Shown here one piece after another: positions 12,681-56,316 of a stretch of 64,000 bases of DNA; position 1 is the stretch's first letter, and each line of letters opens with the position of its first letter. Made by a program: the position numbers and the translations under genes. The stretch covers positions 1 to 64,000 of the forward strand of contig JAFEFO010000041.1 in the NCBI GenBank assembly GCA_018240565.1, in the 5' to 3' direction. The stretch comes from Pseudomonadota bacterium (lineage in GTDB: Bacteria > Pseudomonadota > Gammaproteobacteria > Xanthomonadales > Rhodanobacteraceae). The notes beneath the pieces were generated by a model. The model saw only the letters and a list, made by a program, of their open reading frames with translations, did not search any database and was not told the DNA's origin.

Positions 12681-15197
12681 TCAACGCCGAGGCTTCGCGC
12701 GCGCCGTCGGCGTCGCGGTCCACGGGTCGTCCGGCCAGTGCTGGCGCGGATAGCGGCCCTTGAGTTCCTTTTTCACGTCCGGATAGGTGCGTTCCCAGAA
12801 ACTGCGCAGGTCCTGCGTGACCTGGATCGGACGCTGCGCGGGCGAAAGCAGGTGCAGGACCACCGCCGCCTTGCCGCGGGCGATGCGCGGCGTATCGGCC
12901 AGGCCGAACAATTCCTGCAACTTGACCGCCAGCACCGGCGGCTTGCCCGGCTCGTAGTGCAGGCGCTTGTGGCTGCCGCTGGGAACGGTGAGCGATTCCG
13001 GCGCGAGCTCGTCGACGAGTTTGCGTTGGGCATGCGTCAGGCGCGATGCCAGCGCCTCGCCGAGGATCGTCGGCGACAGCGCATCCAGCCGCGTCTTGCC
13101 GGCAAGATACGGCGCCAGCCAGTCTTCCAGTGAATCGAGCAGGGCCGCGTCGGTGAGATCGGGCAATTCCAGTTCCGGGCACCACTCGCGCAGGCAGGCC
13201 ACGCGCCCGCGCAGGGCGAGCGCGTGATCGCTCCACGGCAGTGTGGCGAGTCCGATATCACGCACGGCGCACAGCAAGGCTGGCAGCGCATCTTCCGGCT
13301 TGGCGGGAACGCCGCGGCGCTCGAGTACGAGCTGCGCGAAACGGCGTTCCTCGAATGTTTCCACCGCGCGCTTGTAGGGATTCCACCGGGAAGCTCGTTC
13401 GCGCGCAAAGCTCGCGGAGAAATCACGTTCGAGAACATCCGCATCGAACGGCGCGGCGGCCAGGATCAGACTATCGCGTTCGTCGAAGCGCAGGTCGGTC
13501 ACCACCAGCCATGGTTCGCCATAGAGTTGCGTGTTCGGATGCAGGTGCGCGCCGCGGCCATTGCTCAAGCGATAGCGATGCGGGTCATTGCCATCTTGTT
13601 TGGCAACGCGATCGGGGAAGGCATGCACGAACAGGTTGCCGAGCGCGAGCCTGTCGTGGCTATTCGGTGCCGCGGATTTCGCGTCGAAACGCCGTCGCCA
13701 GCCGGAAGCGGCCTGGTCGATCGCAGCCAGCGCACCAGGATCGGCCCCGGCATGACGCGCGCCGCGCTTGTCGCTGCGCCAGGCATGCAGCACAGCCACG
13801 CGCGCACGAAAGTCGTCGTTGCGCCCACCATCGCCGCGCAGCGGATTGCGCGCTTCGATCAGTGCGATCAGATCACACGCGAGGGCACGCTGTGCGTCGG
13901 GTGCGCGCAAGGCCATCGCGGTAAGCCGCGGCGCGGCGCCGGTGGTGAGCATGCGGCGGCCGAGGCTGGTCACGCGCGCGTTTGCATCCAGTGCCCCGAG
14001 CAAGACCAGCAGATCGCGCGCGCTGGCGAGCGCACCTTGCGGCGGTGCATCCAGCCAGTGCAGGTCCGGCGATCCCCAGGCGGCGAGTTCCAGCGCCAGT
14101 GCGGACAATTCCACCTGTGCGATTTCCGCGCGGCGCGCCGGTTCCAGGCGCAGGCTCTGCGGCCACAGCCGATACGCAATGCCTTCCGCCACGCGACCGG
14201 CGCGGCCGGCGCGCTGATCGGCGGATGCCTGCGATATGTTGACGGTTTGCAGGCGCGAAAAGCCCGAATTCGGATCGAAACGCGGCTCGCGCGCAAGGCC
14301 GGAATCGATCACCGCGCGAATGCCTGGCAGGGTGACCGAGGATTCGGCCACGTTCGTCGCCAGCACGATGCGTCGCGTGCCCGCGCGCGTGGGCGCCAGT
14401 GCGGCGTGCTGCTCGGCGAGCGCGAGTTCGCCGTGCAGCGCGAGTATTTGTACTCCCTCCCCCAACCCTCTCCCCCGCCGGCTGTCGGGGGAGAGGGCAT
14501 TGCTTGCCTGCTCGATCTCGCGCCGTCCCGGCAGGAACGCGAGGATGTCGCCATCGGTTTCACGCAACGCCACTTCCACCACGCGGCGCAAATGAAACGG
14601 CCAATCCTCGTTGGCCTTCGCCGTCGGATACTCGATGCGCACCGGAAAACTGCGGCCGGCGGAGGTGATGCGCGGCGCGTCGAACCAGCGCGCGATGCGC
14701 TCGCCGTCGAGCGTGGCCGACATGATGGCGAGGCGCAAGTCCGGTCGCAGTGTCGATTGCACCTCGAGCGCGAGCGCCGCGCCCAGATCGCCGTGCAGAT
14801 GGCGCTCGTGGAATTCGTCGAAGAGTATCGCGCCAATGCCGGGCAATTCCGGATCGGACTGGATCAGGCGCGTGAGGATGCCTTCGGTCACGACCTCGAT
14901 GCGTGTGCGTGCGGACGTCTTCGCTTCGAAGCGGATGCGGTAGCCGACAGTAGCGCCAACTTCCTGGCCGAGCTGTGCGGCCATGAACTCCGCCGCCGCG
15001 CGCGCGGCGATGCGGCGCGGTTCGAGGACGAGGATTTTCTTGTCTCCCAGCCAATCCGCGTCGAGCAGGGCCAGCGGCACCTGCGTGGTCTTGCCCGCGC
15101 CGGGCGGCGCTTCCAGCACCAGGCGCGGGTGTTGCGCGAGGCTGGCCAGGATTTCCGGCAAGACCTCATGGATGGGGAAATGTGTACTTTTCATCAT
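12681..15197 (-). CDS. hrpB: ATP-dependent helicase HrpB
   Basis: The 838-residue DEAH-type helicase carries Walker A APPGAGKTTQ near residue 31, DEFHERHLHGD (DEFH box) near residue 126, SATLDG, and QRAGRAGR in the second RecA domain. The long C-terminal HrpB-specific region is present. The family acts on RNA; its exact role in bacteria is still poorly defined. Between the two RecA domains about 18 residues (roughly NALSPDSRRGRGLGEG) are encoded by a palindromic repeat inserted in frame. Confidence 0.94.
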   Translation of the reverse strand: MMKSTHFPIHEVLPEILASLAQHPRLVLEAPPGAGKTTQVPLALLDADWLGDKKILVLEPRRIAARAAAEFMAAQLGQEVGATVGYRIRFEAKTSARTRIEVVTEGILTRLIQSDPELPGIGAILFDEFHERHLHGDLGAALALEVQSTLRPDLRLAIMSATLDGERIARWFDAPRITSAGRSFPVRIEYPTAKANEDWPFHLRRVVEVALRETDGDILAFLPGRREIEQASNALSPDSRRGRGLGEGVQILALHGELALAEQHAALAPTRAGTRRIVLATNVAESSVTLPGIRAVIDSGLAREPRFDPNSGFSRLQTVNISQASADQRAGRAGRVAEGIAYRLWPQSLRLEPARRAEIAQVELSALALELAAWGSPDLHWLDAPPQGALASARDLLVLLGALDANARVTSLGRRMLTTGAAPRLTAMALRAPDAQRALACDLIALIEARNPLRGDGGRNDDFRARVAVLHAWRSDKRGARHAGADPGALAAIDQAASGWRRRFDAKSAAPNSHDRLALGNLFVHAFPDRVAKQDGNDPHRYRLSNGRGAHLHPNTQLYGEPWLVVTDLRFDERDSLILAAAPFDADVLERDFSASFARERASRWNPYKRAVETFEERRFAQLVLERRGVPAKPEDALPALLCAVRDIGLATLPWSDHALALRGRVACLREWCPELELPDLTDAALLDSLEDWLAPYLAGKTRLDALSPTILGEALASRLTHAQRKLVDELAPESLTVPSGSHKRLHYEPGKPPVLAVKLQELFGLADTPRIARGKAAVVLHLLSPAQRPIQVTQDLRSFWERTYPDVKKELKGRYPRQHWPDDPWTATPTARAKPRR
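14453..14498. repeat. palindromic repeat element inside hrpB, in frame
   Basis: CCCTCTCCCCCG (14466-14477) and CGGGGGAGAGGG (14486-14497) form a perfect 12-bp stem with an 8-bp loop, flanked by CCCTCCCCCAAC. This is the typical core of xanthomonad-type repeats. It lies inside hrpB without breaking its frame. Confidence 0.8.
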
Positions 15198-17449: not shown

Positions 17450-19447
17450 GTGACGGACGGCACAAACAACACGACCACGGGCTGGATCGTGTTCGACCAG
17501 GTCGAGATCGACCTCGCCGGCCGGCGCCTGCTGGTTGCTGGTACGCAGGCGGCGCTCGAACCCAAGGCATTCGCCGTGCTGGCGCTGTTCGCACGGCATC
17601 CCGGGCGCGCGTTCTCGCGCGATGAAATCCTCGATGCGGTGTGGGGTCATCGCCATGTAACACCCGGTGTGCTCAACCGCATCATCACGCTGTTGCGCCA
17701 GGCGCTCGGCGAGGGCGCGCAGCACGCGCAGTACATCGCCACCTTGCATGGCGTGGGCTATCGTTTCGATGCAGCCACGCAATGGCGGGCGCAGCGCGAG
17801 GGCGAAGCCGCACCGGCGATCGATCCGCCGGCACCGTCTGCGGCAACCCTCGATGCGCAAGCGCCGTTGCCAGGCGTGACGCAAGCGCCGGCGCAAACGG
17901 CACCGCGCGGGTTCCGGTATGCGGCAGCATGGCTGGCCGTGCTGCTGGCCGTTGTCATCGCGGCGTGGACGTTCTGGCCGCAGCCGCGCCCCGCGGAAAA
18001 CGCGCCGACCGAGACGCAGAGTGTCGCGGTGTTGCCGCTGGTCAATGCGACGGGCGATGCGAACCAGCAGTATTTCGCCGACGGCATCGCGGAAAACCTG
18101 ATCGGCACCTTGTCGCAATACGATGCGCTGCGCGTTATCGGCCGCAGCTCGTCATTTCTTTTTCGCGACAGCCGCGAAGGCGCCAAGGCGATCGGCGCCA
18201 GGCTCGGCGTGTCGCACCTGATCGAAGGCAGTGTGCGCCGCGACGGCGACACCATTCGCGTCGGCATCGAATTGAATCGTGTGGTTGACGGCAGCACGAT
18301 ATGGACACAGAAGTTCGACCGTCCCTACAAGGACCTGTTCGCCTTGCAGGACGAAATCGCGCTCGCCGTGGCCGGCGCACTGCAGGTGAAATTGCTGCAC
18401 GCCATGCCCGGTGCGGTCTACACCGGCCGTCCGAGCACCGGCAATCTCGATGCGTACAACGCGTATTTGCGCGGTACGTCATTGATGATGGGCCCGGATC
18501 TGCAAAAGGCCATCGAGGAATTCTCGCACGCCACGCAAATCGATCCGGCTTACGCGCAAGCCTGGTCGTGGCTGGGTTTCATGCGGACCCAGTATGCGCG
18601 CTTCAATCTCAGCGGCGACGACGAGCGCAGCGCCTTCACGCAAGCGCGCGAGGAAATCGACACCGCGCTGCGCTTGCAACCGAATTTTGGTCAGGCTCAT
18701 GCCATCCGCGCGAATTGGTTGTGGGCGGCCAACCATGACTGGAACGGCGCGCTCGCGGAGTTTCGCATTGCCCTGCCCCTGGTGCCGGAAACCGATCCCA
18801 CGCACGGCGCGATCAGCCGTCTGTTGTCGACGCTCGGACGCATCGACGAAGCCATCATCGAGCGGCGCAAATACATCGATGGCGATCCTTTGGGCACATT
18901 TGCCTTCATCTTATTGGCCAATTTGCAAGCCAGTATTGGGCGTCTGGACGAGGCCCACGCGAGCCTGCAAAAGGCCGCACAAGTGCAGCCGGATCAAACG
19001 GACTTATACGCCAGCGAGCGCAGCGAGTTTGCCGTCCTGCGTGGCGATGCCGGCAAGGCGCTGGCCGAAGCAACGAGCATGTCGAGCGGATATCGGCGCG
19101 ACCGCACGCTCGCATTCGCCTTGCAGATGGGTGGCGATCGCGAGGCGGCCGATGCGGCACTGCAAAGACTGATCGACGCCTACGGCCAGTCCAAGGGCGA
19201 TGCGTACATCATTACCCGTGTGTATGCCTTGCGCGGCGACGCAGACAAAACGTTCGAATGGCTGCAACGCGACTGGGATCGTGGCGCTACGGCCGCGCAT
19301 TACATCCTGTTCGATCCGCTGCTGCTGCGCTTTCGCAACGATCCGCGTTTTGCGGCGTATTGCCAGCGCGCCGGCTTGCCGCCGCCATCGGCGAGCGAGG
19401 CGTTGAGCCTGGATCGCATTCGTACGATGGTGGCGACAAAAGGCTGA
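17450..19447 (+). CDS. CadC-like winged-helix/TPR regulator, copy 1
   Basis: The 665-residue protein has an N-terminal OmpR-type winged helix (about 10-105: LEPKAFAVLALFARHPGRAFSR and VLNRIITLLRQALGEG). A Pro/Ala linker, one membrane helix (about 157-177) and a periplasmic TolB-N-like domain (YFADGIAENLIGTL, GSVRRDGDTIRVGIEL) follow. The rest is TPR repeats. CadC/ToxR-type proteins bind DNA while anchored in the inner membrane and sense periplasmic signals without phosphorylation. GTG at 17450 is the start. A paralogue follows 102 bp downstream; some segments of the two are nearly identical at DNA level. Confidence 0.88.
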   Translation: MTDGTNNTTTGWIVFDQVEIDLAGRRLLVAGTQAALEPKAFAVLALFARHPGRAFSRDEILDAVWGHRHVTPGVLNRIITLLRQALGEGAQHAQYIATLHGVGYRFDAATQWRAQREGEAAPAIDPPAPSAATLDAQAPLPGVTQAPAQTAPRGFRYAAAWLAVLLAVVIAAWTFWPQPRPAENAPTETQSVAVLPLVNATGDANQQYFADGIAENLIGTLSQYDALRVIGRSSSFLFRDSREGAKAIGARLGVSHLIEGSVRRDGDTIRVGIELNRVVDGSTIWTQKFDRPYKDLFALQDEIALAVAGALQVKLLHAMPGAVYTGRPSTGNLDAYNAYLRGTSLMMGPDLQKAIEEFSHATQIDPAYAQAWSWLGFMRTQYARFNLSGDDERSAFTQAREEIDTALRLQPNFGQAHAIRANWLWAANHDWNGALAEFRIALPLVPETDPTHGAISRLLSTLGRIDEAIIERRKYIDGDPLGTFAFILLANLQASIGRLDEAHASLQKAAQVQPDQTDLYASERSEFAVLRGDAGKALAEATSMSSGYRRDRTLAFALQMGGDREAADAALQRLIDAYGQSKGDAYIITRVYALRGDADKTFEWLQRDWDRGATAAHYILFDPLLLRFRNDPRFAAYCQRAGLPPPSASEALSLDRIRTMVATKG

Positions 19448-19549: not shown

Positions 19550-21550
19550 GTGTTGAAGGACGCAGTGGAAAAAGCGACTACCGGTTGGATCGTCTTCGAC
19601 CGCATTGAAATCGACCTTGCGGGCCGCCGCCTGTTCGTGGCGGACGCGCAACTGGCGCTCGAACCGAAGGCATTCGCGGTGCTGGTGCTGTTCGCGCAGC
19701 ATCCCGGGCGCGCGTTTGCTCGCGACGAGATCCTCGACGCGGTGTGGGGTCATCGCCATGTGACGCCCGGCGTGCTCAACCGCATCATCACCTTGCTGCG
19801 GCAGGCGCTGGGCGAGGGCGCGCAGCACGCGCAGTACATCGCCACCTTGCATGGCGTGGGTTATCGTTTCGATGCAGCCACGCAATGGCGGGCGCAGCGC
19901 GAGGGCGAAGCCGCACCGGCGATCGCTCCGCCGGCACCGCCCGCGGCAACCGTCGATGCGCAAGTGCCGTTGCCGGGCGTGACGCAAGCACCGGCGCAAA
20001 CGGCACCGCGCAAATTTTCCTATGTGGCGGTCGCCATGGCCGTACTGGTGGCCATTGCAATCACAGGATGGAAATTCTGGCCGCACACGCGCACCGCCGA
20101 AAACGCGCCGGTCGAGGCGCAAAGCGTCGCCGTGCTGCCGCTGGTCAATGCCACGGGCGACGCCAGCCAACAATTTTTCACGGACGGCATATCCGAAAAC
20201 CTGATCGCCACCTTGTCGCAGTACGAAGGCCTGAAAGTCATCGGTCGCAGTTCGGCATTTCATTTTCGCAACAGCCGCGAAGGCGCCAAGGCCATTGGCG
20301 CGAAACTCGGGGTGACGCACCTGATCGACGGCAGCGTGCAACGCGATGGCGAGGACGTGCGCATCGGCATCGAGCTGACTCGCACCAACGATGGCACGAC
20401 GGTGTGGACACGGGTTTTTGACCGGCCGCACAAGGAGCTGTTCGCGTTACAGGACGAAATCGCGCTCGCCGTGGCCGGTGCACTGCAGGTGAAATTGCTT
20501 CACGCCATGCCCGGTGCGGTCTACACCGGCCGTCCGAGCACCGGCAATCTCGATGCGTACAACGCGTTTTTGCGCGGTACGTCGTTCATGGCCGCCGGGG
20601 ACATGCGCAAGTCCATGGAACAATTCACGCTGGCGACGCAGATCGACCCGGCCTACGCCCAGGCATGGGCGTGGCTGGGCCTGCGGCGTACGGTATACAC
20701 ACTCGACGAGTTGCAAGGCGATGCGGCACGCAGCTCGTACCAGCAGGCGCGCGAGGAAATCGACACGGCCCTGCGTCTGCAGCCGAACTTCGGCCAGGCG
20801 CACGCCATCCTTGCGAATTGGTTGAGAACCGCCAGCCACGATTGGAACGGCGCGCTGGCCGAGTTCCGCATCGCTCTGCCACGGGTGCCGGACAACGACC
20901 CTTCGCACGGCGCCTACAGCATCCTGCTGTCCGCGATGGGCCGCGTCAACGAAGCCATCGCCGAGCGGCGCAAGTACATCGATGGTGATCCACTTGCCGC
21001 CTACGGATACATGTACCTGGTCAACATGCAGGCCAGCCTCGGTCGGCTGGACGAAGCCGAAGCCAGTCTGGGCGACGCCGAAAAGCTCGATCCTTCCGCA
21101 ACCGATTGGCATGCCGTCAAACGCAGCGAAATCGCCCTGCTGCGCGCAGACACGGACAAGGCATTGGCGGCGGCGGCGAGCATGTCGGCCGGCGAGTGGC
21201 GCGACATGACACGCGCGCTCGCCTTGCAAGCCGGCCGCGACCGCAAGGCTGCAGACGCCGCACTGCGGAACTTGACCGTGTCTGCGGGGGATTTCAATCG
21301 CAAGGCTTACCTCATCGCCCGCATGCATGCCTTGCGCGGCGACGCCGACAAGACCTTCGAGTGGCTGCAACACGACTGGGAGCACGGCGCTGCAGCCGTG
21401 CACTACGTGCTGTTCGATCCATTCCTGTTGCGTTTCCGCAATGATCCGCGTTTCGCCGCGTATTGCCAGCGTGCCGGCCTGCCGCCGCCGTCGGCGAGCG
21501 AGGCGCTGAGCCTGGACGAGATCCGCGCCCGGGTTGACGCCAAGTCGTGA
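19550..21550 (+). CDS. CadC-like winged-helix/TPR regulator, copy 2
   Basis: The 666-residue paralogue of the preceding gene has the same order: winged helix, linker, membrane helix (YVAVAMAVLVAIAITGWKFW), TolB-N-like domain and TPRs. It ends with the same SASEALSLD tail. GTG at 19550 is preceded by AAGGATCG. The DNA for the end of the winged helix plus linker (about 19742-20003) and the segment at 20455-20570 are almost identical to copy 1. The TPR region is clearly more diverged, which suggests duplication followed by gene conversion. Its targets are not proven; phased 11-bp repeats before nearby secreted-protein genes are candidates. Confidence 0.88.
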   Translation: MLKDAVEKATTGWIVFDRIEIDLAGRRLFVADAQLALEPKAFAVLVLFAQHPGRAFARDEILDAVWGHRHVTPGVLNRIITLLRQALGEGAQHAQYIATLHGVGYRFDAATQWRAQREGEAAPAIAPPAPPAATVDAQVPLPGVTQAPAQTAPRKFSYVAVAMAVLVAIAITGWKFWPHTRTAENAPVEAQSVAVLPLVNATGDASQQFFTDGISENLIATLSQYEGLKVIGRSSAFHFRNSREGAKAIGAKLGVTHLIDGSVQRDGEDVRIGIELTRTNDGTTVWTRVFDRPHKELFALQDEIALAVAGALQVKLLHAMPGAVYTGRPSTGNLDAYNAFLRGTSFMAAGDMRKSMEQFTLATQIDPAYAQAWAWLGLRRTVYTLDELQGDAARSSYQQAREEIDTALRLQPNFGQAHAILANWLRTASHDWNGALAEFRIALPRVPDNDPSHGAYSILLSAMGRVNEAIAERRKYIDGDPLAAYGYMYLVNMQASLGRLDEAEASLGDAEKLDPSATDWHAVKRSEIALLRADTDKALAAAASMSAGEWRDMTRALALQAGRDRKAADAALRNLTVSAGDFNRKAYLIARMHALRGDADKTFEWLQHDWEHGAAAVHYVLFDPFLLRFRNDPRFAAYCQRAGLPPPSASEALSLDEIRARVDAKS

Positions 21551-23068: not shown

Positions 23069-25318
23069 CTACTCGAATCCGTCCTTGAAAATCGTGTCGC
23101 CGATGTAGTCGAGTGTGATGCCGTCGAACCAGGCGCTTAGGCTGTGCGGGTTAGAGACTGCACCAGAGTGAGCGACGAGCATTAGCTTGATCGACAAATC
23201 GTTGCCATACTGCGCCTGGGGCAGGTCGATGCTTGCCGGTTGCGCGGGATGGCCCCACGAAGTTCCGCTGCCAAGCGTCAATTGCCCGGACTGCACCACA
23301 CCGCCCTGACAGGTCGGCAACGTGTTTTTTCGAACTTCCCATTTCACGATCGCATAGTCGCGCGTGAGCACGGTACCGCCGCCGCCCTTGCCCCAACCCG
23401 TGAGCGAGTAACTTCCCGGAGCGGGTAGGACAATGCACTGTTCTGCAACGACAACGTCAACCGCGCTGGTGCTGCCGATACTGTACTTCCACGAGCCCGA
23501 ATTGTTGCCGCCGACAATGTTCTGCGTACCGTCCCAAGCGCCGTCAAACTTTGTCCACAGGCGCAGATCGGAATAGTCGAAATCGGCATTAAGTACCAGC
23601 GGCTGCAGGGCCGGGCGTTCGAGTGCGCCGATGTCGCGCGGACCCGGCGTGTTGGAGTTGGGCAAGTCGATATCGCGCGTGCGGCCAAGGGCGTCGCGTT
23701 CGTTGCCGGGAATCGCGGGCGCATAGTCGATTGCAGGCGAGCCGGCGCGCAAGCCGTAGTCGCCGTGTGCGGGGTCGATGAAAAGCGGGTCCAAGGCAGT
23801 AGCGAAAAACGAGCCTCCCAGGCTGGTGTTTTCCCAAGCATCCACGCGATAGACGGAAAGCGTGCCGCCGCTGCGCGAAAGCGACGTGCGGCCCGGTTGC
23901 CACAGTATCGAGCGTTGCAGGTCGATGGCGCTGTTCGTTGCGCTCAGGATGGCGTTGCCAACTGCGATCGTATTGCCGGCAATGGTGGAGTCGGCAATCG
24001 TGAGCGGCTGGCCCGACTGTTGGATCACGGCGGCACTGGTCGTATTGTCGCTGATCACCGAGCGATTGATTATCGTGCTTGCCGCACCGCCAAAGACCGA
24101 TCCGGACGTGTTGTATTGGACAAACACGCCGCCGCGCGCATCATCCGGCGGAAAAAGCGGCTGATATCCGAGCATGATCGTGGAATCGCTTTCACCGTAC
24201 ACAATGGATCCAGGGTTGCTGCCGGTATCAGCGGTATTGTGGGTGATGCGTCCGCAATCGCTGCCGACGGTGCAAGGCACGGCCGGCGCAGGCAAGACGC
24301 CGAGATTGATGTACAGCGTCGATTTGTTTGCCATGTAGATGGCGCCGCCGTTGGGAGCAAAATTGCTGTCGAGCCCGGTGTTCCAAAGTCGCGCCTTCGA
24401 TCTGGACGAACTGGCATATATGCCACCGCCTTGTTTCGTCGCCGAATTACCTATGATTTGAGTCTTGAGTCCTGCGTCGGTGGCGTAGAGCTGCAATTCC
24501 GCTGCGTAGCTACCCGTGCTGAAGATTGCCACGCCACCGCCATAGAGCGCGGTATTGCCATAGAACGCGCCAAACAGTCCACCGCTGCCGATGTAACCGT
24601 AACTGGGTCGATCTTCGGCATAGATGAACAGGCCGCCACCGTAGCCGCCGTTGCCGCCCTTGCCCAGCGCCTTGTTGTTCAGGATGCCGGTGTTCAGATC
24701 GAGCATCGACATTTCGACTCCCTTCGCCATCACCCCGCCACCGTTATAGGCGGCCGTGTTTCTGCTGATAGCCGTATTTGCGCCGATGATCAGTTCCGTG
24801 TGTGATCCAGTGCCTTCGATATAGATGCCGGCACCCGCGCCGGCCTTGTTCAGCTCGATGGTGCTTTCGACGATTTCGAGGATGCCATCGCCCTTGAAGT
24901 AGATGCCGCCGCCTGCGCCAGTGTCATCGACATCGCCTCCACTGATCGTGAGCCGGCGTATGCGCACTATCACGTCAGTCGGCGCTTTGATCGTGAATAC
25001 CGGTGCGTGTACGCCGCCGGCACCGCTGACGATCGTCCTGGTGGAGTCCGGGCTGGCCTGATCGCAGGTGGCATAGCCACCCTCGACAGTGATCTCCTTC
25101 GTCGTATCGATCGTGTTCGCTTCCGGTTCGTAGGTGAGCGAGCGGGTCAGGCGGATGATGCTGTCAGTGCCTGAATTTTTGGCGGCATTGATTGCGCCCT
25201 GGATGCTGCCATGCGTGCAAGTGACGCCGCTGCCGACTGTGAAAATGGCAGCCTGGGTTGCATTGGCCAGCAGGCCGAAGAGTGCGAGCGCGATGAAACG
25301 CAAGTAGGTGTGTGACAT
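23069..25318 (-). CDS. secreted right-handed beta-helix protein with IFKDGFE tail
   Basis: The 749-residue protein has a signal peptide (LRFIALALFGLLANATQA) and a CSLP-like N-terminal part (SIQGAINAAKNSGTDSIIRL). A long parallel beta-helix of polymorphic-outer-membrane-protein type follows, with repeated GGGIY/GGGV and NTA elements. After it comes a C-terminal beta-sandwich of about 150 residues. It ends in GDTIFKDGFE. The same kind of tail ends the delta-60 protein encoded at 26601. It starts 25 bp after the PD40 gene and is probably co-transcribed with it. GGGAGAACACACC precedes the ATG at 25318. A surface or extracellular role is likely; any ligand is unknown. Confidence 0.82.
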   Translation of the reverse strand: MSHTYLRFIALALFGLLANATQAAIFTVGSGVTCTHGSIQGAINAAKNSGTDSIIRLTRSLTYEPEANTIDTTKEITVEGGYATCDQASPDSTRTIVSGAGGVHAPVFTIKAPTDVIVRIRRLTISGGDVDDTGAGGGIYFKGDGILEIVESTIELNKAGAGAGIYIEGTGSHTELIIGANTAISRNTAAYNGGGVMAKGVEMSMLDLNTGILNNKALGKGGNGGYGGGLFIYAEDRPSYGYIGSGGLFGAFYGNTALYGGGVAIFSTGSYAAELQLYATDAGLKTQIIGNSATKQGGGIYASSSRSKARLWNTGLDSNFAPNGGAIYMANKSTLYINLGVLPAPAVPCTVGSDCGRITHNTADTGSNPGSIVYGESDSTIMLGYQPLFPPDDARGGVFVQYNTSGSVFGGAASTIINRSVISDNTTSAAVIQQSGQPLTIADSTIAGNTIAVGNAILSATNSAIDLQRSILWQPGRTSLSRSGGTLSVYRVDAWENTSLGGSFFATALDPLFIDPAHGDYGLRAGSPAIDYAPAIPGNERDALGRTRDIDLPNSNTPGPRDIGALERPALQPLVLNADFDYSDLRLWTKFDGAWDGTQNIVGGNNSGSWKYSIGSTSAVDVVVAEQCIVLPAPGSYSLTGWGKGGGGTVLTRDYAIVKWEVRKNTLPTCQGGVVQSGQLTLGSGTSWGHPAQPASIDLPQAQYGNDLSIKLMLVAHSGAVSNPHSLSAWFDGITLDYIGDTIFKDGFE

Positions 25319-25343: not shown

Positions 25344-26405
25344 TCAGGACTTGCGAGCCGCACACCAGCGCCCGAACCACGCGCTTGTGCCCAGCAATGC
25401 GGCAAGCAGGGCGAGCAGGGGCCAGCCGAGCGCGGGCGTTGACGCAACACCGCCTGCGGCCTGTACGACTGCGCGCGTGGCGACGAAGACATCGCCCGGA
25501 TCGGTGCTGTCCACCTTGCGTCCGAAGTACAAGCGCGTGCCGTCGGCCGACAGGGACGAGCGTGTTTCCGAACCGCTGGTATTGATGTTGGCGTTCGGAA
25601 TCGGCTTCGGCGCCGACCAAGGCGAGGAGGTGTTCGGTCGCGTGGCGCTGTAGATGTCCATGTTTCCGCCGCGGTTGGAGCTGAACACGATCTCCAGTCC
25701 GTCGCTGCGCACGTTCGGCATGCGATCATCCGCGGCGCTGGACAGTTCGGCCACGCGCACGCCGGCGCCGAACGTGCCGTTGCCGGCCTGCTGGCTCATG
25801 TAGATGTCCTGGCCCTGGCTGTCGGGATAGCCATTGCTGGAGAAGAACAGGAAGGTGCCCTGCGCGGTGGTCACCAGCGACGGGCTGTACTCCGCGCCCG
25901 CGGTATTCGGCCCGTTCGGGTAGCAGCCGAGGTTCGTCGGCGTCGACCAGGTGTTGGAACCGGTTTCCGTGCTCAGGAAGATGTCGCCATCCGCGGGGGC
26001 GCCGGGCGCCGGCGTGGGCGGCGTGTTGCCGGGATAGCAGTCGTCGCCCGTCTGCTGCGAGCTGACGAACAACAAGCGATTGCCGGAAATCGGCGTCGGG
26101 CAGTAGTCGAACTCGGGCGAGTTCACCGGCGCGGCAAGGTTTTCCGCGGTTCCCCAGGCCGACTGCGTCGTGGCACGGAACGCGCGCCAGATATCCTGCT
26201 TGCCCAGTCCGCCCGTGCGGCTGGAGGCAAAGTACAGCCCAAGGCCGTTCGGCGTCTCGATCGGGCAGCCCTCGGCGGCAGCGGTATTGATGTCGGTCAC
26301 GGCCACCGGATCGCTCCACGGGCCGAAGTTCTGGGCACAGGCGCTGCCCAGTCCGGCGGTGAACACGGCAATGGCGGCGCAAACGGGTCGAAGTGCGAGA
26401 TGCAT
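25344..26405 (-). CDS. secreted PD40 beta-propeller protein with C-terminal membrane anchor
   Basis: The 353-residue protein has a signal peptide ending SACAQ. TolB-like PD40 propeller blades follow (LYFASSRTGG, FVSSQQTG, FFSSNGYPD, VFSSNRGGNMDIY, LYFGRKVDS). It ends with a C-terminal hydrophobic segment and basic tail (STPALGWPLLALLAALL, then RWCAARKS). The tail resembles sorting signals of the IPTL-CTERM kind, though the motif is not exact. GAGGAAAATTCC precedes the ATG at 26405. It heads a two-gene unit with the beta-helix gene, behind the phased repeats at 26507-26557. Confidence 0.78.
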   Translation of the reverse strand: MHLALRPVCAAIAVFTAGLGSACAQNFGPWSDPVAVTDINTAAAEGCPIETPNGLGLYFASSRTGGLGKQDIWRAFRATTQSAWGTAENLAAPVNSPEFDYCPTPISGNRLLFVSSQQTGDDCYPGNTPPTPAPGAPADGDIFLSTETGSNTWSTPTNLGCYPNGPNTAGAEYSPSLVTTAQGTFLFFSSNGYPDSQGQDIYMSQQAGNGTFGAGVRVAELSSAADDRMPNVRSDGLEIVFSSNRGGNMDIYSATRPNTSSPWSAPKPIPNANINTSGSETRSSLSADGTRLYFGRKVDSTDPGDVFVATRAVVQAAGGVASTPALGWPLLALLAALLGTSAWFGRWCAARKS

Positions 26406-26487
26406 GGAATTTTCCTCGTCGTGGCGAACCTGTTGTCGCACCCGCGTGGGGCGCGCTCGCATCGGCGATGCGATGGCGCAAGGCTCG

Positions 26488-26557
26488 CCCGCGCCTGCCC
26501 CAAGGTCTTTAGGGCAGGCGCGGGAAGTGCTTGGGGAAAGCTTGGGGCAGGCTTGGG
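26488..26557 (-). promoter_or_regulatory. 11-bp phased GCTTGGG repeats and 13-bp hairpin before the PD40/beta-helix unit
   Basis: GCTTGGG stands at 26529, 26540 and 26551, exactly 11 bp apart. Weaker copies GCGCGGG (26518) and CTTTAGG (26507) keep the same phase. A 13-bp perfect inverted repeat, CCCGCGCCTGCCC (26488-26500) with GGGCAGGCGCGGG (26512-26524), encloses AAGGTCTTTA. The same AGGTCTTTAGGGCAG and GCTTGGG repeats occur at 29190-29232. Direct repeats at 11 bp are typical of OmpR/PhoB-type winged-helix binding sites. Confidence 0.55.
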
Positions 26558-26600: not shown

Positions 26601-29126
26601 TTATTCGAAACCGTCTCGGAAGATGCGATCGTCGCGCCAGACGCGGCGAACGCTTTCGACCATGCCCTGCGACGCATTGCTTTCGCCGCCACTGGTGCGG
26701 CCTTCGGCGCGCAGCCAGTAGAACTGGCCGATCGGTGCAGGCACGTTGCTGCGCTGCCAGCCGCCGGCGATGCGCGTCATCGGCCCGAGTGCGGTGTAGC
26801 TGGCGCCGTTGGCGGAGTAGTACAAGGTCGGTTGGGCCGCCAGTTCCGGGCCGGCACCTGCCCGGCGCCAGGTCACCGTGCCGTCCTGCACGTCCAGCGA
26901 CTGCAAGGCCGCGTCCGGCGTGGACAGACGCGCCAAGGCAGCGCGTTGCTCTCCACCGACCGTGAGGAACCAGCCGCCGACCATGACCTTGCCATCGGGC
27001 TGCGTTGCCAGGGCGTATACCAGGTTGTCCGCAACGGGATCGCCAAATGTCGAATCGAGGCTGCCATTCGCGTTCAGGCGCGCGATGCGCGCGCGCGCTT
27101 GATGGCTCATCGTGATGAACGCGCCACCCACCAATATTTTGCCGTCCGGCTGCACGGCCAACGAGAAGATGTCAGCGTTCGAGCCGGGATCGGCGAAGCT
27201 CGTATCGAGGCTGCCGTCCGCATTCAGACGCGCCACGGCACTGCGCGGTTCAATGCCGATTGCACCGAAGCCGCCGGCGATCAGCACCTTGCCATCCGGC
27301 TGCATCGCCAGCGCGTAGACCCTGCTGTTTGCGCCGGGATCGATAAAGCCCGTATCCAGGCTGCCATCGGCGTTCAGGCGCGCGACATGGTTGCGCGACT
27401 GTCCGTCAATCTGGGTAAAGTTGCCGCCCACCAGCACCTTGCCGTCGGGCTGCAAGGCCAGCGCGTAGACCTCGTCGTTTGCGCTGGCATTGGCGAAGGT
27501 CGTGTCCAGGCCACCAGCCGGGTTCAGGCGCGCGATGCGGCTGCGCGCCTGCCCGCCGATCGTGGTGAACGCGCCACCGACCAGTACTTTGCCGTCCGCC
27601 TGCACGGCCAGGGTACGAACCAAATCGTCGGCACCGGGATCGACGAAGCTTGTATCGAGACTGCCGTTCGCGTTCAGGCGCGCCACGCGGGTACGCGTCA
27701 ACCCACCGATTTCGCTGAAGTTGCCACCGACCATTACCTTGCCATCCGCTTGCACTGCCAGTGCATGGATCGCATTGTTAGCGGCAGGGTTGGCGAAGCC
27801 CGTGTCGAGGTCGCCATTCGCGTTCACACGCCCCAGATTCTGGCGAATCTGTCCACCCAGCATGCTGAAGCTTCCGCCGACCAGCACCTTGCCGCCGGGC
27901 TGCTCGGCCAACACATAAACCGTGCCATTTGCGCCGGAGCCGGCCAGCGTCGCATCAAGGTTGCCATCTGGGTTGAGTCGCGCCATGCCGTGGCGTGTCT
28001 GCCCGCGAATCGTGGTGAATACGCCGCCGAGCAGCACCCTGCCGTCCGGCTGCACCGCCAACGCGAAAACGCCCCAACCATCCGAGCCCGGATCGGCGAA
28101 ACTCGTGTCGAGGCTACCGTCCGCATTCAGGCGCGCCGCACCCTTGCGCGACTGGCCGCCGGTCACGGTGAACCAGCCACCGATCAGCACCTTCCCATCC
28201 GGCTGCAAGGCCAGCGCTTCGACCCACAGGTTTGCGCCGGCATCGGCGAATCCAGCATCCAGGCTGCCGTTCGTGTTCAGTCGCGCGACGTATTTGCGCG
28301 TCTGGCCGTCGAACGTGGTGAAGTTGCCACCCGCCAGCACCTTGCCATCCGGCTGCACCGCCAACGCGATGATCACGTCGTTCGCGCCAGCATTCACGAA
28401 GCGCGTGTCGACGCTGCCGTTGGCGTTCAGACGCACGATGCGATTGCGCGCCTGCCCGCCGACCAGAGTGAACCAGCCACCGACCAGCACCTTGCCGTCC
28501 GCCTGCACGGCCAGCGAACGGACGGAGTCGTTCAGGCCGGGATCCGCGAAACCCGCGTCGAAGCTGCCATTGGCATTGAGGCGTGCGATACCCTTGCGCG
28601 ACTGGCCGCCAATGGTGTTGAAGGCTCCGCCGACCAGCACTTTGCCATCCGCCTGCACCGCCAATGCGAAGATCTGGGCGTCCGCTGCGGGATCGGCGAA
28701 CGTCATGTCGATACTGCCGTCCGCGTTCAGGCGCGCCAGCCGGCTGCGGAGCTGTCCACCGATCAGCGTGAACCAGCCGCCGACCAGAATGCGGCCGTCG
28801 GACTGCACGGCAATCGTTTCGACCATGATGTCAATATTCGGATTGGCGAACGTCGAATCCACCGTACCGTCCGCCAGCAGGCGGCAGACGCGGATGCAAG
28901 GCTGGCCGTTGACCGTGGTGAAGTCGCCGCCGATCACCGCTTTGCCATCTGGCTGCACGGCCATGTCCCATACCGCGCCATTGATCGACGGTCCCCATAC
29001 CGGACCATAGACAGACGGCGCATAGCCGTCGTTGGCGTCTTGCGCGGTCGCGGAGGCGACGCCGATCAACAGCAACAAACAGGCTGCCGCGCGAAGAGTC
29101 GCGGCAAGAAACTGACGTGATTTCAT
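26601..29126 (-). CDS. secreted delta-60 repeat protein with IFRDGFE tail
   Basis: The 841-residue protein has a signal peptide (LRAAACLLLLIGVASATAQ). Fourteen tandem repeats of about 50 residues follow, with consensus ALAVQPDGKVLVGGxF and then GQxRxxIARLNANGSLDTSF, i.e. the delta-60 repeat, probably a beta-propeller-like fold. A C-terminal region of about 90 residues ends in RDDRIFRDGFE. It is likely extracellular or surface attached; function unknown. ATG at 29126 is placed at the signal peptide. It has its own upstream phased repeats at 29194-29232. Confidence 0.86.
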   Translation of the reverse strand: MKSRQFLAATLRAAACLLLLIGVASATAQDANDGYAPSVYGPVWGPSINGAVWDMAVQPDGKAVIGGDFTTVNGQPCIRVCRLLADGTVDSTFANPNIDIMVETIAVQSDGRILVGGWFTLIGGQLRSRLARLNADGSIDMTFADPAADAQIFALAVQADGKVLVGGAFNTIGGQSRKGIARLNANGSFDAGFADPGLNDSVRSLAVQADGKVLVGGWFTLVGGQARNRIVRLNANGSVDTRFVNAGANDVIIALAVQPDGKVLAGGNFTTFDGQTRKYVARLNTNGSLDAGFADAGANLWVEALALQPDGKVLIGGWFTVTGGQSRKGAARLNADGSLDTSFADPGSDGWGVFALAVQPDGRVLLGGVFTTIRGQTRHGMARLNPDGNLDATLAGSGANGTVYVLAEQPGGKVLVGGSFSMLGGQIRQNLGRVNANGDLDTGFANPAANNAIHALAVQADGKVMVGGNFSEIGGLTRTRVARLNANGSLDTSFVDPGADDLVRTLAVQADGKVLVGGAFTTIGGQARSRIARLNPAGGLDTTFANASANDEVYALALQPDGKVLVGGNFTQIDGQSRNHVARLNADGSLDTGFIDPGANSRVYALAMQPDGKVLIAGGFGAIGIEPRSAVARLNADGSLDTSFADPGSNADIFSLAVQPDGKILVGGAFITMSHQARARIARLNANGSLDSTFGDPVADNLVYALATQPDGKVMVGGWFLTVGGEQRAALARLSTPDAALQSLDVQDGTVTWRRAGAGPELAAQPTLYYSANGASYTALGPMTRIAGGWQRSNVPAPIGQFYWLRAEGRTSGGESNASQGMVESVRRVWRDDRIFRDGFE

Positions 29127-29169
29127 GGCGATCTGCCCCGGATGCGCCGGCCAGTCCGGCACGGCGATC

Positions 29170-29232
29170 CTCGCGCGCGCTCGCGCGCGAGGTCTTTAGG
29201 GCAGCGTTAGGATTGCTTGGGAAATGCTTGGG
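29170..29232 (-). promoter_or_regulatory. phased GCTTGGG repeats before the delta-60 gene
   Basis: GCTTGGG stands at 29215 and 29226 (11 bp apart), with GCGTTAG at 29204 in phase and CTTTAGGGCAG from 29194. A 10-bp perfect inverted repeat CTCGCGCGCG/CGCGCGCGAG (about 29172-29193) lies on the gene-proximal side. The arrangement copies that at 26488-26557, also about 70-100 bp before a secreted-protein gene. Confidence 0.5.
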
Positions 29233-54495: not shown

Positions 54496-56316
54496 GTGGC
54501 GACGACGGAAGTCAAGGTTCCGGATATCGGCAACTACAGCAACATTCCCGTAATCGAAGTCCTGGTCAAACCCGGTGACGTGGTGAAGAAGGACCAGGGC
54601 CTGGTCACGCTCGAGTCGGACAAGGCGACGATGGAAGTGCCATCGAGCGTTGGTGGTGTGGTGCGTGAGTTGAAAGTGAAGCTCGGCGACGAGGTGTCGG
54701 AAGGGCATGTGGTGGCGGTGATCGAGGTACAAGGCGCCGCTAAATCACCTCTCCCGCTGGCGGGAGAGGTCGCGGCGCGTAGCGCCGCGGGTGAGGGTGG
54801 AGCCAAACCTGTTGCACCACCCTCACCCCAGCCCTCTCCCGCCAGCGGGAGAGGGGGACAAAGCGCCGCACCGCAGGCCGCCGCCGCATCGACCGGCCGC
54901 AAGGCCGACATCGAATGCCAGGTCGTCGTGCTCGGATCAGGCCCCGGCGGTTACACCGCGGCATTTCGCGCTGCGGATCTCGGATTGAATACGGTATTGG
55001 TCGAGCGTTACGCCACGCTTGGCGGCGTGTGCCTGAATGTCGGGTGCATTCCATCCAAGGCGCTGCTGCATGCGGCCAAGGTGATCGACGAGGCTGCGCA
55101 CGCGGCGGATATCGGCATCGACTTCGGCAAGCCGAAGATCGACATCGGCAAATTGCGCGGTTTCAAGGAAAAAGTCGTCGCGCAGCTCACCGGCGGCCTT
55201 GCCGGCATGAGCAAGCAACGCAAGGTCACGACGGTGCAAGGCGTGGGAAAATTCGCCTCGCCGAACGAGATCGAAGTCGAGAGCAAGGACGGCAAGAAGC
55301 TCGTACGCTTCGAACACGCCATCATCGCGGCCGGTTCGCAGGCGGTGAAGCTGCCCGGATTCCCCTGGGACGATCCGCGCATGATGGATTCCACCGACGC
55401 GTTGCTGCTCGGTGACGTGCCCAAGAAACTGCTCGTGGTCGGCGGCGGCATCATTGGTCTGGAAATGGCCTGTGTGTACGACGCGCTCGGCAGCGAAGTC
55501 ACCGTGGTCGAACTGCTCGATCAGCTCATGCCCGGCGCGGATGTCGACTTGGTCAAGCCGTTGGCGACACGATTGGGCAAACGCTACGCCGGTATCCATC
55601 TGAAAGTGAAGGTCGCCAAGGTCGAAGCGACCAAAGCGGGGCTCAAGGCCACGTTCGAGGGCGAGAAAGCTCCCGAGCCACAGGTTTACGACCGCGTGCT
55701 CGTCGCCGTGGGACGTTCACCGAACGGAAGGAAAATCGACGCCGACAAGGCGGGAGTGAACGTCACCGAGCGCGGCTTCATTCCGGTCGACAAGCAGATG
55801 CGCACCAATGTGCCGCACATCTTCGCCATCGGCGACATCGTCGGCAACCCGATGCTCGCGCACAAGGCCACGCACGAAGGCAAGGTTGCTGCCGAAGTGT
55901 GCGCCGGGAAAAAGAGCGAATTCGTCGCGCGTGTGATTCCATCGGTCGCCTATACCGATCCGGAAATCGCTTGGGTCGGCGTCACCGAGACCGAAGCGAA
56001 ACAGCAGGGACTGAAATACGGCGTCGGCAAATTCCCGCATGCTGCCTCCGGCCGCGCGATTGGCATCGCGCGCACCGAAGGTTTCACCAAGCTCATTTTC
56101 GACGAGGCCACGCATCGCATCATCGGCGCCGGCGTCACCTGTCCGAATGCGGGCGAGCTGGTCTCCGAACTCGCGCTGGCCATCGAGATGGGCTGCGAAG
56201 CCGGCGACATCGGCCTCACCGTGCATCCGCATCCGACGCTGTCCGAATCCGTCGGCATGGCCGCCGAAGTCTACGAAGGCACGATCACGGATTTGTATAT
56301 TCCGAAGCGCAAGTAG
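54496..56316 (+). CDS. lpdA: dihydrolipoyl dehydrogenase (E3) with N-terminal lipoyl domain
   Basis: The 606-residue protein has an N-terminal lipoyl domain (LESDKATMEVPSSVG, Lys near residue 44), a linker, then a full flavoprotein E3. The E3 has GSGPGGYTAAFRAADLG for FAD, redox disulphide CLNVGCIPSKALLH near residue 180, VGGGIIGLEMA for NAD and HPHPTLSESV with the catalytic His. It reoxidises the E2 lipoyl groups. GTG at 54496 follows AAAGGAG. The linker (about residues 84-121) is encoded by a 110-bp palindromic repeat. Lipoylated E3 proteins occur in Neisseria and xanthomonads. Confidence 0.95.
   Translation: MATTEVKVPDIGNYSNIPVIEVLVKPGDVVKKDQGLVTLESDKATMEVPSSVGGVVRELKVKLGDEVSEGHVVAVIEVQGAAKSPLPLAGEVAARSAAGEGGAKPVAPPSPQPSPASGRGGQSAAPQAAAASTGRKADIECQVVVLGSGPGGYTAAFRAADLGLNTVLVERYATLGGVCLNVGCIPSKALLHAAKVIDEAAHAADIGIDFGKPKIDIGKLRGFKEKVVAQLTGGLAGMSKQRKVTTVQGVGKFASPNEIEVESKDGKKLVRFEHAIIAAGSQAVKLPGFPWDDPRMMDSTDALLLGDVPKKLLVVGGGIIGLEMACVYDALGSEVTVVELLDQLMPGADVDLVKPLATRLGKRYAGIHLKVKVAKVEATKAGLKATFEGEKAPEPQVYDRVLVAVGRSPNGRKIDADKAGVNVTERGFIPVDKQMRTNVPHIFAIGDIVGNPMLAHKATHEGKVAAEVCAGKKSEFVARVIPSVAYTDPEIAWVGVTETEAKQQGLKYGVGKFPHAASGRAIGIARTEGFTKLIFDEATHRIIGAGVTCPNAGELVSELALAIEMGCEAGDIGLTVHPHPTLSESVGMAAEVYEGTITDLYIPKRK
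54747..54855. repeat. 110-bp composite palindromic repeat inside lpdA, in frame
   Basis: Four perfect inverted pairs follow each other: ACCTCTCCCGC/GCGGGAGAGGT (54747-54770), CGCGGCGC/GCGCCGCG (54771-54789), GGTGAGGGTGG/CCACCCTCACC (54790-54827) and CCCTCTCCCGC/GCGGGAGAGGG (54832-54855). The end units mirror each other. The element encodes the linker between lipoyl and E3 domains. Confidence 0.85.

Follow-up and report, generated by a model that had tools for sequence, protein, structure and literature searches.

An 11-bp-phased direct repeat before secreted-protein genes as the probable operator of CadC/ToxR-like winged-helix/TPR regulators in a Rhodanobacteraceae bacterium

Genes and sequence features of the locus

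The DNA analysed, hereafter called the window, is a stretch of 64,000 nucleotides from a member of the Rhodanobacteraceae (order Xanthomonadales; contig JAFEFO010000041.1). The genes and putative operators relevant here are the following.

17450..19447, plus strand: regA, a CadC-like regulator with a Trans_reg_C winged helix-turn-helix (wHTH), one hydrophobic segment and a TPR domain
19550..21550, plus strand: regB, a paralogue of regA with an identical recognition helix
21584..23062, minus strand: TPR and 2OG-Fe(II) oxygenase gene, third in an apparent operon, start codon uncertain
23069..25318, minus strand: secreted beta-helix protein, second gene of the apparent operon
25344..26405, minus strand: PD40 propeller protein with a signal peptide, first gene after operator A
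26503..26557, minus strand: putative operator A, half-sites CCCAAGC, CCCAAGC, CCCAAGC, CCCGCGC and CCTAAAG, phased at 11 bp
26601..29126, minus strand: secreted DUF5122 (delta-60 repeat) propeller protein, the gene after operator B
29190..29232, minus strand: putative operator B, half-sites CCCAAGC, CCCAAGC, CCTAACG and CCTAAAG, phased at 11 bp except for a single step of 10 bp

As in CadC/ToxR-like regulators, the predicted products of regA and regB carry at the N-terminus a Trans_reg_C winged helix (E ~1e-18), which matches the structures of PhoB, KdpE, CadC and ToxR and is followed by a hydrophobic stretch, FRYAAAWLAVLLAVVIAAW, at residues ~155-173. The two genes lie 5-9 kb from the operators, behind tatD and without an operator of their own. 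Many other Trans_reg_C-TPR homologues are encoded in the same genome, and across the winged helix only regA and regB match closely. At the DNA level regA and regB are 92-98 % identical at gene positions ~180-420, which take in part of the winged helix as well as a linker that is normally variable, and again at 900-1020, and mostly 50-85 % identical elsewhere, suggesting gene conversion between them.

The DUF5122 protein (26601-26630) and the beta-helix protein (23069-23100) both terminate in IF[RK]DGFE, and a beta-helix homologue in another genome (locus L103) has a similar end, VIFADDFEAP. This end is possibly a short C-terminal sorting or secretion motif.

Anatomy of the repeat array

The three perfect GCTTGGG units at 11-bp steps reported in the earlier note were confirmed, with plus-strand starts at 26529, 26540 and 26551, and the two weaker in-phase units were also present, giving five units from 26557 down to 26503. 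Because the surrounding genes are on the minus strand, the natural reading of the half-site is CCCAAGC, and on that strand the units from 26557 to 26503 are CCCAAGCCTGC, CCCAAGCTTTC, CCCAAGCACTT, CCCGCGCCTGC and CCTAAAGACCT. The earlier placing of the array before PD40 and beta-helix genes held for the PD40 gene, which is directly behind it; the beta-helix gene is the second of the apparent operon.

Single copies of GCTTGGG were not in excess in the window (10 against 9.2 expected), whereas pairs at 11 bp with at most two mismatches were (6 against 0.74 expected). Three exact 7-mers at period 11 occurred once in the window and in none of 60 second-order Markov simulations, and no such triple was found in the window at periods 7-10 or 12-16. 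The 11-bp repeat is thus real and far above chance. Its units are direct, not inverted, with a period of ~11 bp, as in the tandem operators of OmpR/PhoB-type regulators, and operator A resembles the operators of homologous regulators in other genomes.

A second putative operator and the search of the genome

A second copy, overlooked in the earlier note, was found at 29215/29226, where it precedes the next gene upstream. The genome scan for paired GCTTGGG that the note had proposed returned matches only before two secreted-protein genes: in pattern searches across the 2.99-Mb genome, the exact pair GCTTGGG-N4-GCTTGGG was present only at operators A and B, as were the three-unit pattern with one mismatch allowed and TGCCCTAAAGACC with one mismatch allowed (two copies). 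Across the genus, GCTTGGG-N4-GCTTGGG had no match outside this genome, since the relatives carry CCTAAG or CCCAAGG variants.

Putative core promoters behind the operators

Each operator is followed by a putative core promoter.

26504..26513, minus strand: CCTAAAGACC, the last half-site of operator A, overlapping the -35-like hexamer AAGACC (26509-26504)
26481..26486, minus strand: -10-like hexamer GAGCCT, 17 bp after AAGACC (promoter A)
29167..29196, minus strand: core promoter B, with AAGACC (29196-29191), 18 bp and GAGGAT (29172-29167)

The element CCTMAAGACC, of which the window's genome has two copies only, is kept in about 40 loci of the genomes compared. It lies downstream of the core pair of half-sites by 32-33, 42-44, 52-53 or 63-64 bp, or, in one locus, by 66 bp; with that one exception the distances are whole helical turns. 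A conserved CC is found 11 bp before it. In 33 of 33 element-bearing loci a GANNCT-like hexamer, its second position A and its sixth T, follows AAGACC after 17 or 18 bp; the background frequency of A-N3-T at this distance is 2.8 %. Together, CCTMAAGACC and GANNCT would make a sigma70-like promoter whose -35 is covered by one half-site; at the level of sequence the repeats sit on the -35 or immediately before it, as in OmpR/PhoB-type operators. A consensus promoter scan gave no match, so the promoter appears to be weak, as expected if it depends on an activator. A FliA-type reading of CCTMAAG was rejected, as the expected -10 was absent and the 17-18-bp, sigma70-like spacing fitted all 33 sites.

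By eye, GTATCC was seen on the opposite strand of many divergent loci, ~22 nt beyond the core pair; it is likely the -10 of the regulator gene. It is absent at the window sites, as expected because no regulator gene is present there.

Perfect inverted repeats are present in the -35/-10 regions at 26488-26524 (13-bp arms, the longest in the window) and 29169-29192 (11-bp arms); they were not seen in the relatives.

The repeat beside regulator homologues in other genomes

In other genera, a CCYAAG pair with 11-bp spacing lies just upstream of the regA homologues, in the interval separating each from a divergent gene. The window and a few relatives supplied the sequences for a strict motif, CCYAAGCWTTYCCYAAGS, which includes a WTTY spacer. 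Searched across 398 genomes of the order, this motif gave 17 matches and the reversed pattern one. Twelve of these had not been used in building the motif, and 11 of the 12 were just upstream of a regulator homologue of the wHTH-TM-TPR type, with CCYAAG facing away from the regulator in all 11. The remaining match (L119/L131) lies before the gene of a secreted protein, and such a regulator (L127) is present in that genome too. This stand-alone match, at L131:6327 on the minus strand, lies before a gene for a 438-amino-acid protein without a Pfam match, possibly a distant member of the regulon; a reading of L119/L131 as a haloperoxidase had no support from Pfam. The loose pattern CCYAAGS-N4-CCYAAGS was not enriched genome-wide over the family (26 matches, below the reversed control), and enrichment was seen only in the form with the WTTY spacer.

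A scan by protein covered 80 named loci from Rhodanobacter, Rudaea, Dokdonella, Pseudoxanthomonas, Lysobacter, Luteimonas, Stenotrophomonas and other genera, in genomes that partly overlap those of the motif search. Spacing was assessed in the 67 upstream regions of regulators that reach 60 % identity in the winged helix. Perfect CCYAAG pairs were found 29 times at 11 bp, three times each at 9 and 10 bp and at no other spacing, and none had the opposite orientation; near-perfect or better pairs at 11 bp numbered 39. Shuffled upstream regions gave 0.0 perfect and 0.05 near-perfect pairs. Exact 7-mer repeats, counted independently of any motif, also peaked at a lag of 11 (59, from 19 loci, with 19 as the next highest count). 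As the loci share descent, they cannot be counted as independent events. No operator was found upstream of the regulators in the window's own clade (the window and L135), so the evidence from adjacency stems from the relatives.

Half-site sequence and recognition helix

The sequence of the half-site varies in step with the recognition helix of the adjacent regulator. Regulators with the helix sequence TPGVLNR, the closest class, had a CCYAAG pair in 27 of 43 cases, as opposed to 2 of 35 of the others (Fisher p 9e-8); most of the 16 TPGVLNR regulators without the exact pair had near matches. CCT triples at exactly 11 bp were found with 9 of 12 TQSVLNR regulators, compared with 2 of 43 in the TPGVLNR class, their half-sites being CCTGCGA, CCTCACGA and CCTAACGA. 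CCTCA pairs accompanied 6 of 7 TPGVLTR regulators; in L106, L202, L203 and L209, of this class, CCTCATGA or CCTCACG is repeated at 11 bp, another half-site in the same frame. Because the half-site covaries with the helix, the wHTH-TM-TPR proteins, and not another regulator, are the predicted binders.

Divergent genes and a small secreted protein

The divergent gene of 17 loci, which lies 117-160 bp beyond the motif, codes for a hitherto undescribed small secreted protein of ~100 residues (L125:6432-6740 and 16 further loci, alignment A1), with invariant C37, P43, N56, R64, R73 and C75, two of them cysteines. It had no significant match in Pfam or NCBIfam. The model of the mature protein contains a confident beta-alpha-alpha-beta unit, for which a fold search gave no match in the PDB. 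The gene after that of the small protein codes for a PD40 protein in L088 and L143 and a DUF5122 protein in L133 and L140. Elsewhere the divergent gene itself codes for a PD40 (L162, L171), DUF5122 (L191) or beta-helix (L103) protein. PD40 homologues are divergent from the regulator in about ten named loci and DUF5122 homologues in L191 and L140, and the beta-helix homologue of L103 is directly behind the motif.

No copy of the small protein was found in the window genome. In the simplest history, the divergent arrangement would be ancestral and the lineage of the window would have separated the regulators from the operators and lost the small gene. A wider reading, to which we give slightly less than even weight, is that these proteins form a novel family of Xanthomonadales winged-helix/TPR membrane regulators with the divergent small secreted protein as periplasmic partner, and that the half-sites (CCYAAGC, CCTGCGA/CCTCACGA, CCTCATGA) diversified alongside the recognition helix while the 11-bp frame and the -35 half-site were kept. 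If so, the regulator subfamilies would offer a natural series in which the code of DNA recognition by OmpR/PhoB-type domains could be read.

Proposed function of the array and alternative explanations

The array is very probably a tandem-repeat operator through which the CadC/ToxR-like regA and regB products activate a local gene set. The suggestion of the earlier note, that CadC-like regulators encoded 5-9 kb away act here and control secreted proteins, is supported by the same 11-bp repeat lying between a regulator homologue and a divergent secreted-protein gene in other genomes, by this gene often being a PD40 or DUF5122 homologue and by the half-site tracking the recognition helix. The occurrence of the repeats before secreted-protein genes, on which the note had staked its reading, was borne out in the window's genome and in the relatives. 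From these patterns we infer that RegA and RegB bind directly, that they activate rather than repress and that they sense a signal.

Each regulator would have a cytoplasmic OmpR/PhoB-type winged helix, one transmembrane segment and a TPR domain outside. The winged-helix domains would dock head to tail on a single face of the DNA, one per 11-bp unit, the unit consisting of the 7-bp half-site CCYAAGC and a 4-bp spacer that is often A/T-rich. PhoB sites likewise have two 7-bp direct repeats and a 4-bp A/T-rich stretch, with one monomer per repeat (PMC4971064), and both the alignment of RegA/RegB along one DNA face and the recruitment of polymerase are proposed by analogy with PhoB. The last unit, CCTAAAGACC, would lie over the -35 of a weak sigma70-type promoter with GAGCCT (A) or GAGGAT (B) as its -10, and because of this overlap the bound regulator would most likely recruit RNA polymerase and activate. 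The units activated would be the PD40/beta-helix/oxygenase genes and the DUF5122 propeller gene. In the relatives the regulator gene is divergent across the operator and probably autoregulated.

The main rival is that the regulators bind yet repress, the half-site at the -35 blocking polymerase until a signal relieves the block. The overlap of the last half-site with a -35-like hexamer in the conserved sites would suit such a block, but the core promoter is weak, with no match in the consensus scan, and the array lies whole helical turns upstream, fitting contact between an activator and polymerase, although the spacing alone is also compatible with repression; we consider repression unlikely. 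It is less probable still that the array, as an operator of OmpR/PhoB type, serves a soluble two-component response regulator instead of RegA/RegB. Its spacing and 7+4 layout agree with PhoB-type sites, and both kinds of protein have the winged-helix fold, but the motif matches elsewhere adjoin wHTH-TM-TPR genes and the half-site varies with their helix.

The 13-bp perfect inverted repeat at 26488-26524 brings to mind a transcribed element, either a structured leader RNA or a terminator for the DUF5122 gene. Such an element seems highly improbable, as there is no T-run and no Rfam match, and the hairpin is not seen in the relatives, where the 11-bp repeats are. A chance repeat in GC-rich DNA would agree with the lack of enrichment of GCTTGGG alone in the window, but the failure of all 60 simulations to yield such an array, the second copy and the conservation across genera leave it a negligible prospect, already refuted by the comparative data. 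Activation by RegA and RegB accounts best for the observations.

Relation to known regulatory systems

The type of operator, PhoB-like, and the type of receptor are already known; the regulon, the promoter layout, the putative secreted partner protein and the series of specificity classes had no counterpart in the literature searched and appear to be new. Like the Pho box, the operators consist of 7 + 4 bp direct repeats with an 11-bp period near a weak sigma70 promoter, read by the same fold; unlike it, they have CCYAAGC as half-site, up to five units and a putative membrane regulator without a receiver domain. RegA and RegB resemble CadC and ToxR in the N-terminal winged helix and, if the hydrophobic stretch spans the membrane, would also share the single transmembrane segment and the outside sensor domain; their matches include the NCBIfam CadC model and PDB entries of CadC/ToxR. 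They differ in that the outside part is a TPR domain and the half-site is GC-rich, and against the NCBIfam CadC equivalog they score 67 and 71 bits, far below the cut-off of 400.

ToxR/ToxS and VtrA/VtrC are co-component systems (PMC9214523), and the present family is similar to them in the genetic linkage of a membrane winged-helix regulator to a small exported protein (PMC9214523). Here, unlike in those cassettes, the gene of the small protein is divergent rather than directly downstream in the regulator operon, and it is absent from the window genome; the modelled fold is a short beta-alpha-alpha-beta unit and not a lipocalin, and the protein is a predicted partner only.

TPR-bearing CadC/ToxR-like regulators are numerous in these genomes, where the scored homologues often number 10-20 or more in each. 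In the literature searched, outside which most subscription journals lie, no binding site or target was found for the CadC-like/TPR regulators of the order. A regulator family for which no published target was found thereby gains a predicted operator, promoter layout, targets and a specificity helix that covaries with the half-site, predictions that can be tested in cultured Rudaea cellulosilytica or Pseudoxanthomonas species. A conserved family of small secreted proteins without a Pfam or NCBIfam model has also been brought to light.

Elsewhere in the window, similar inverted repeats of the form CCCTCTCCC...GGGAGAGGG are present at 14466-14497, 54747-54770 and 54832-54855, and are possibly a dispersed REP-like element.
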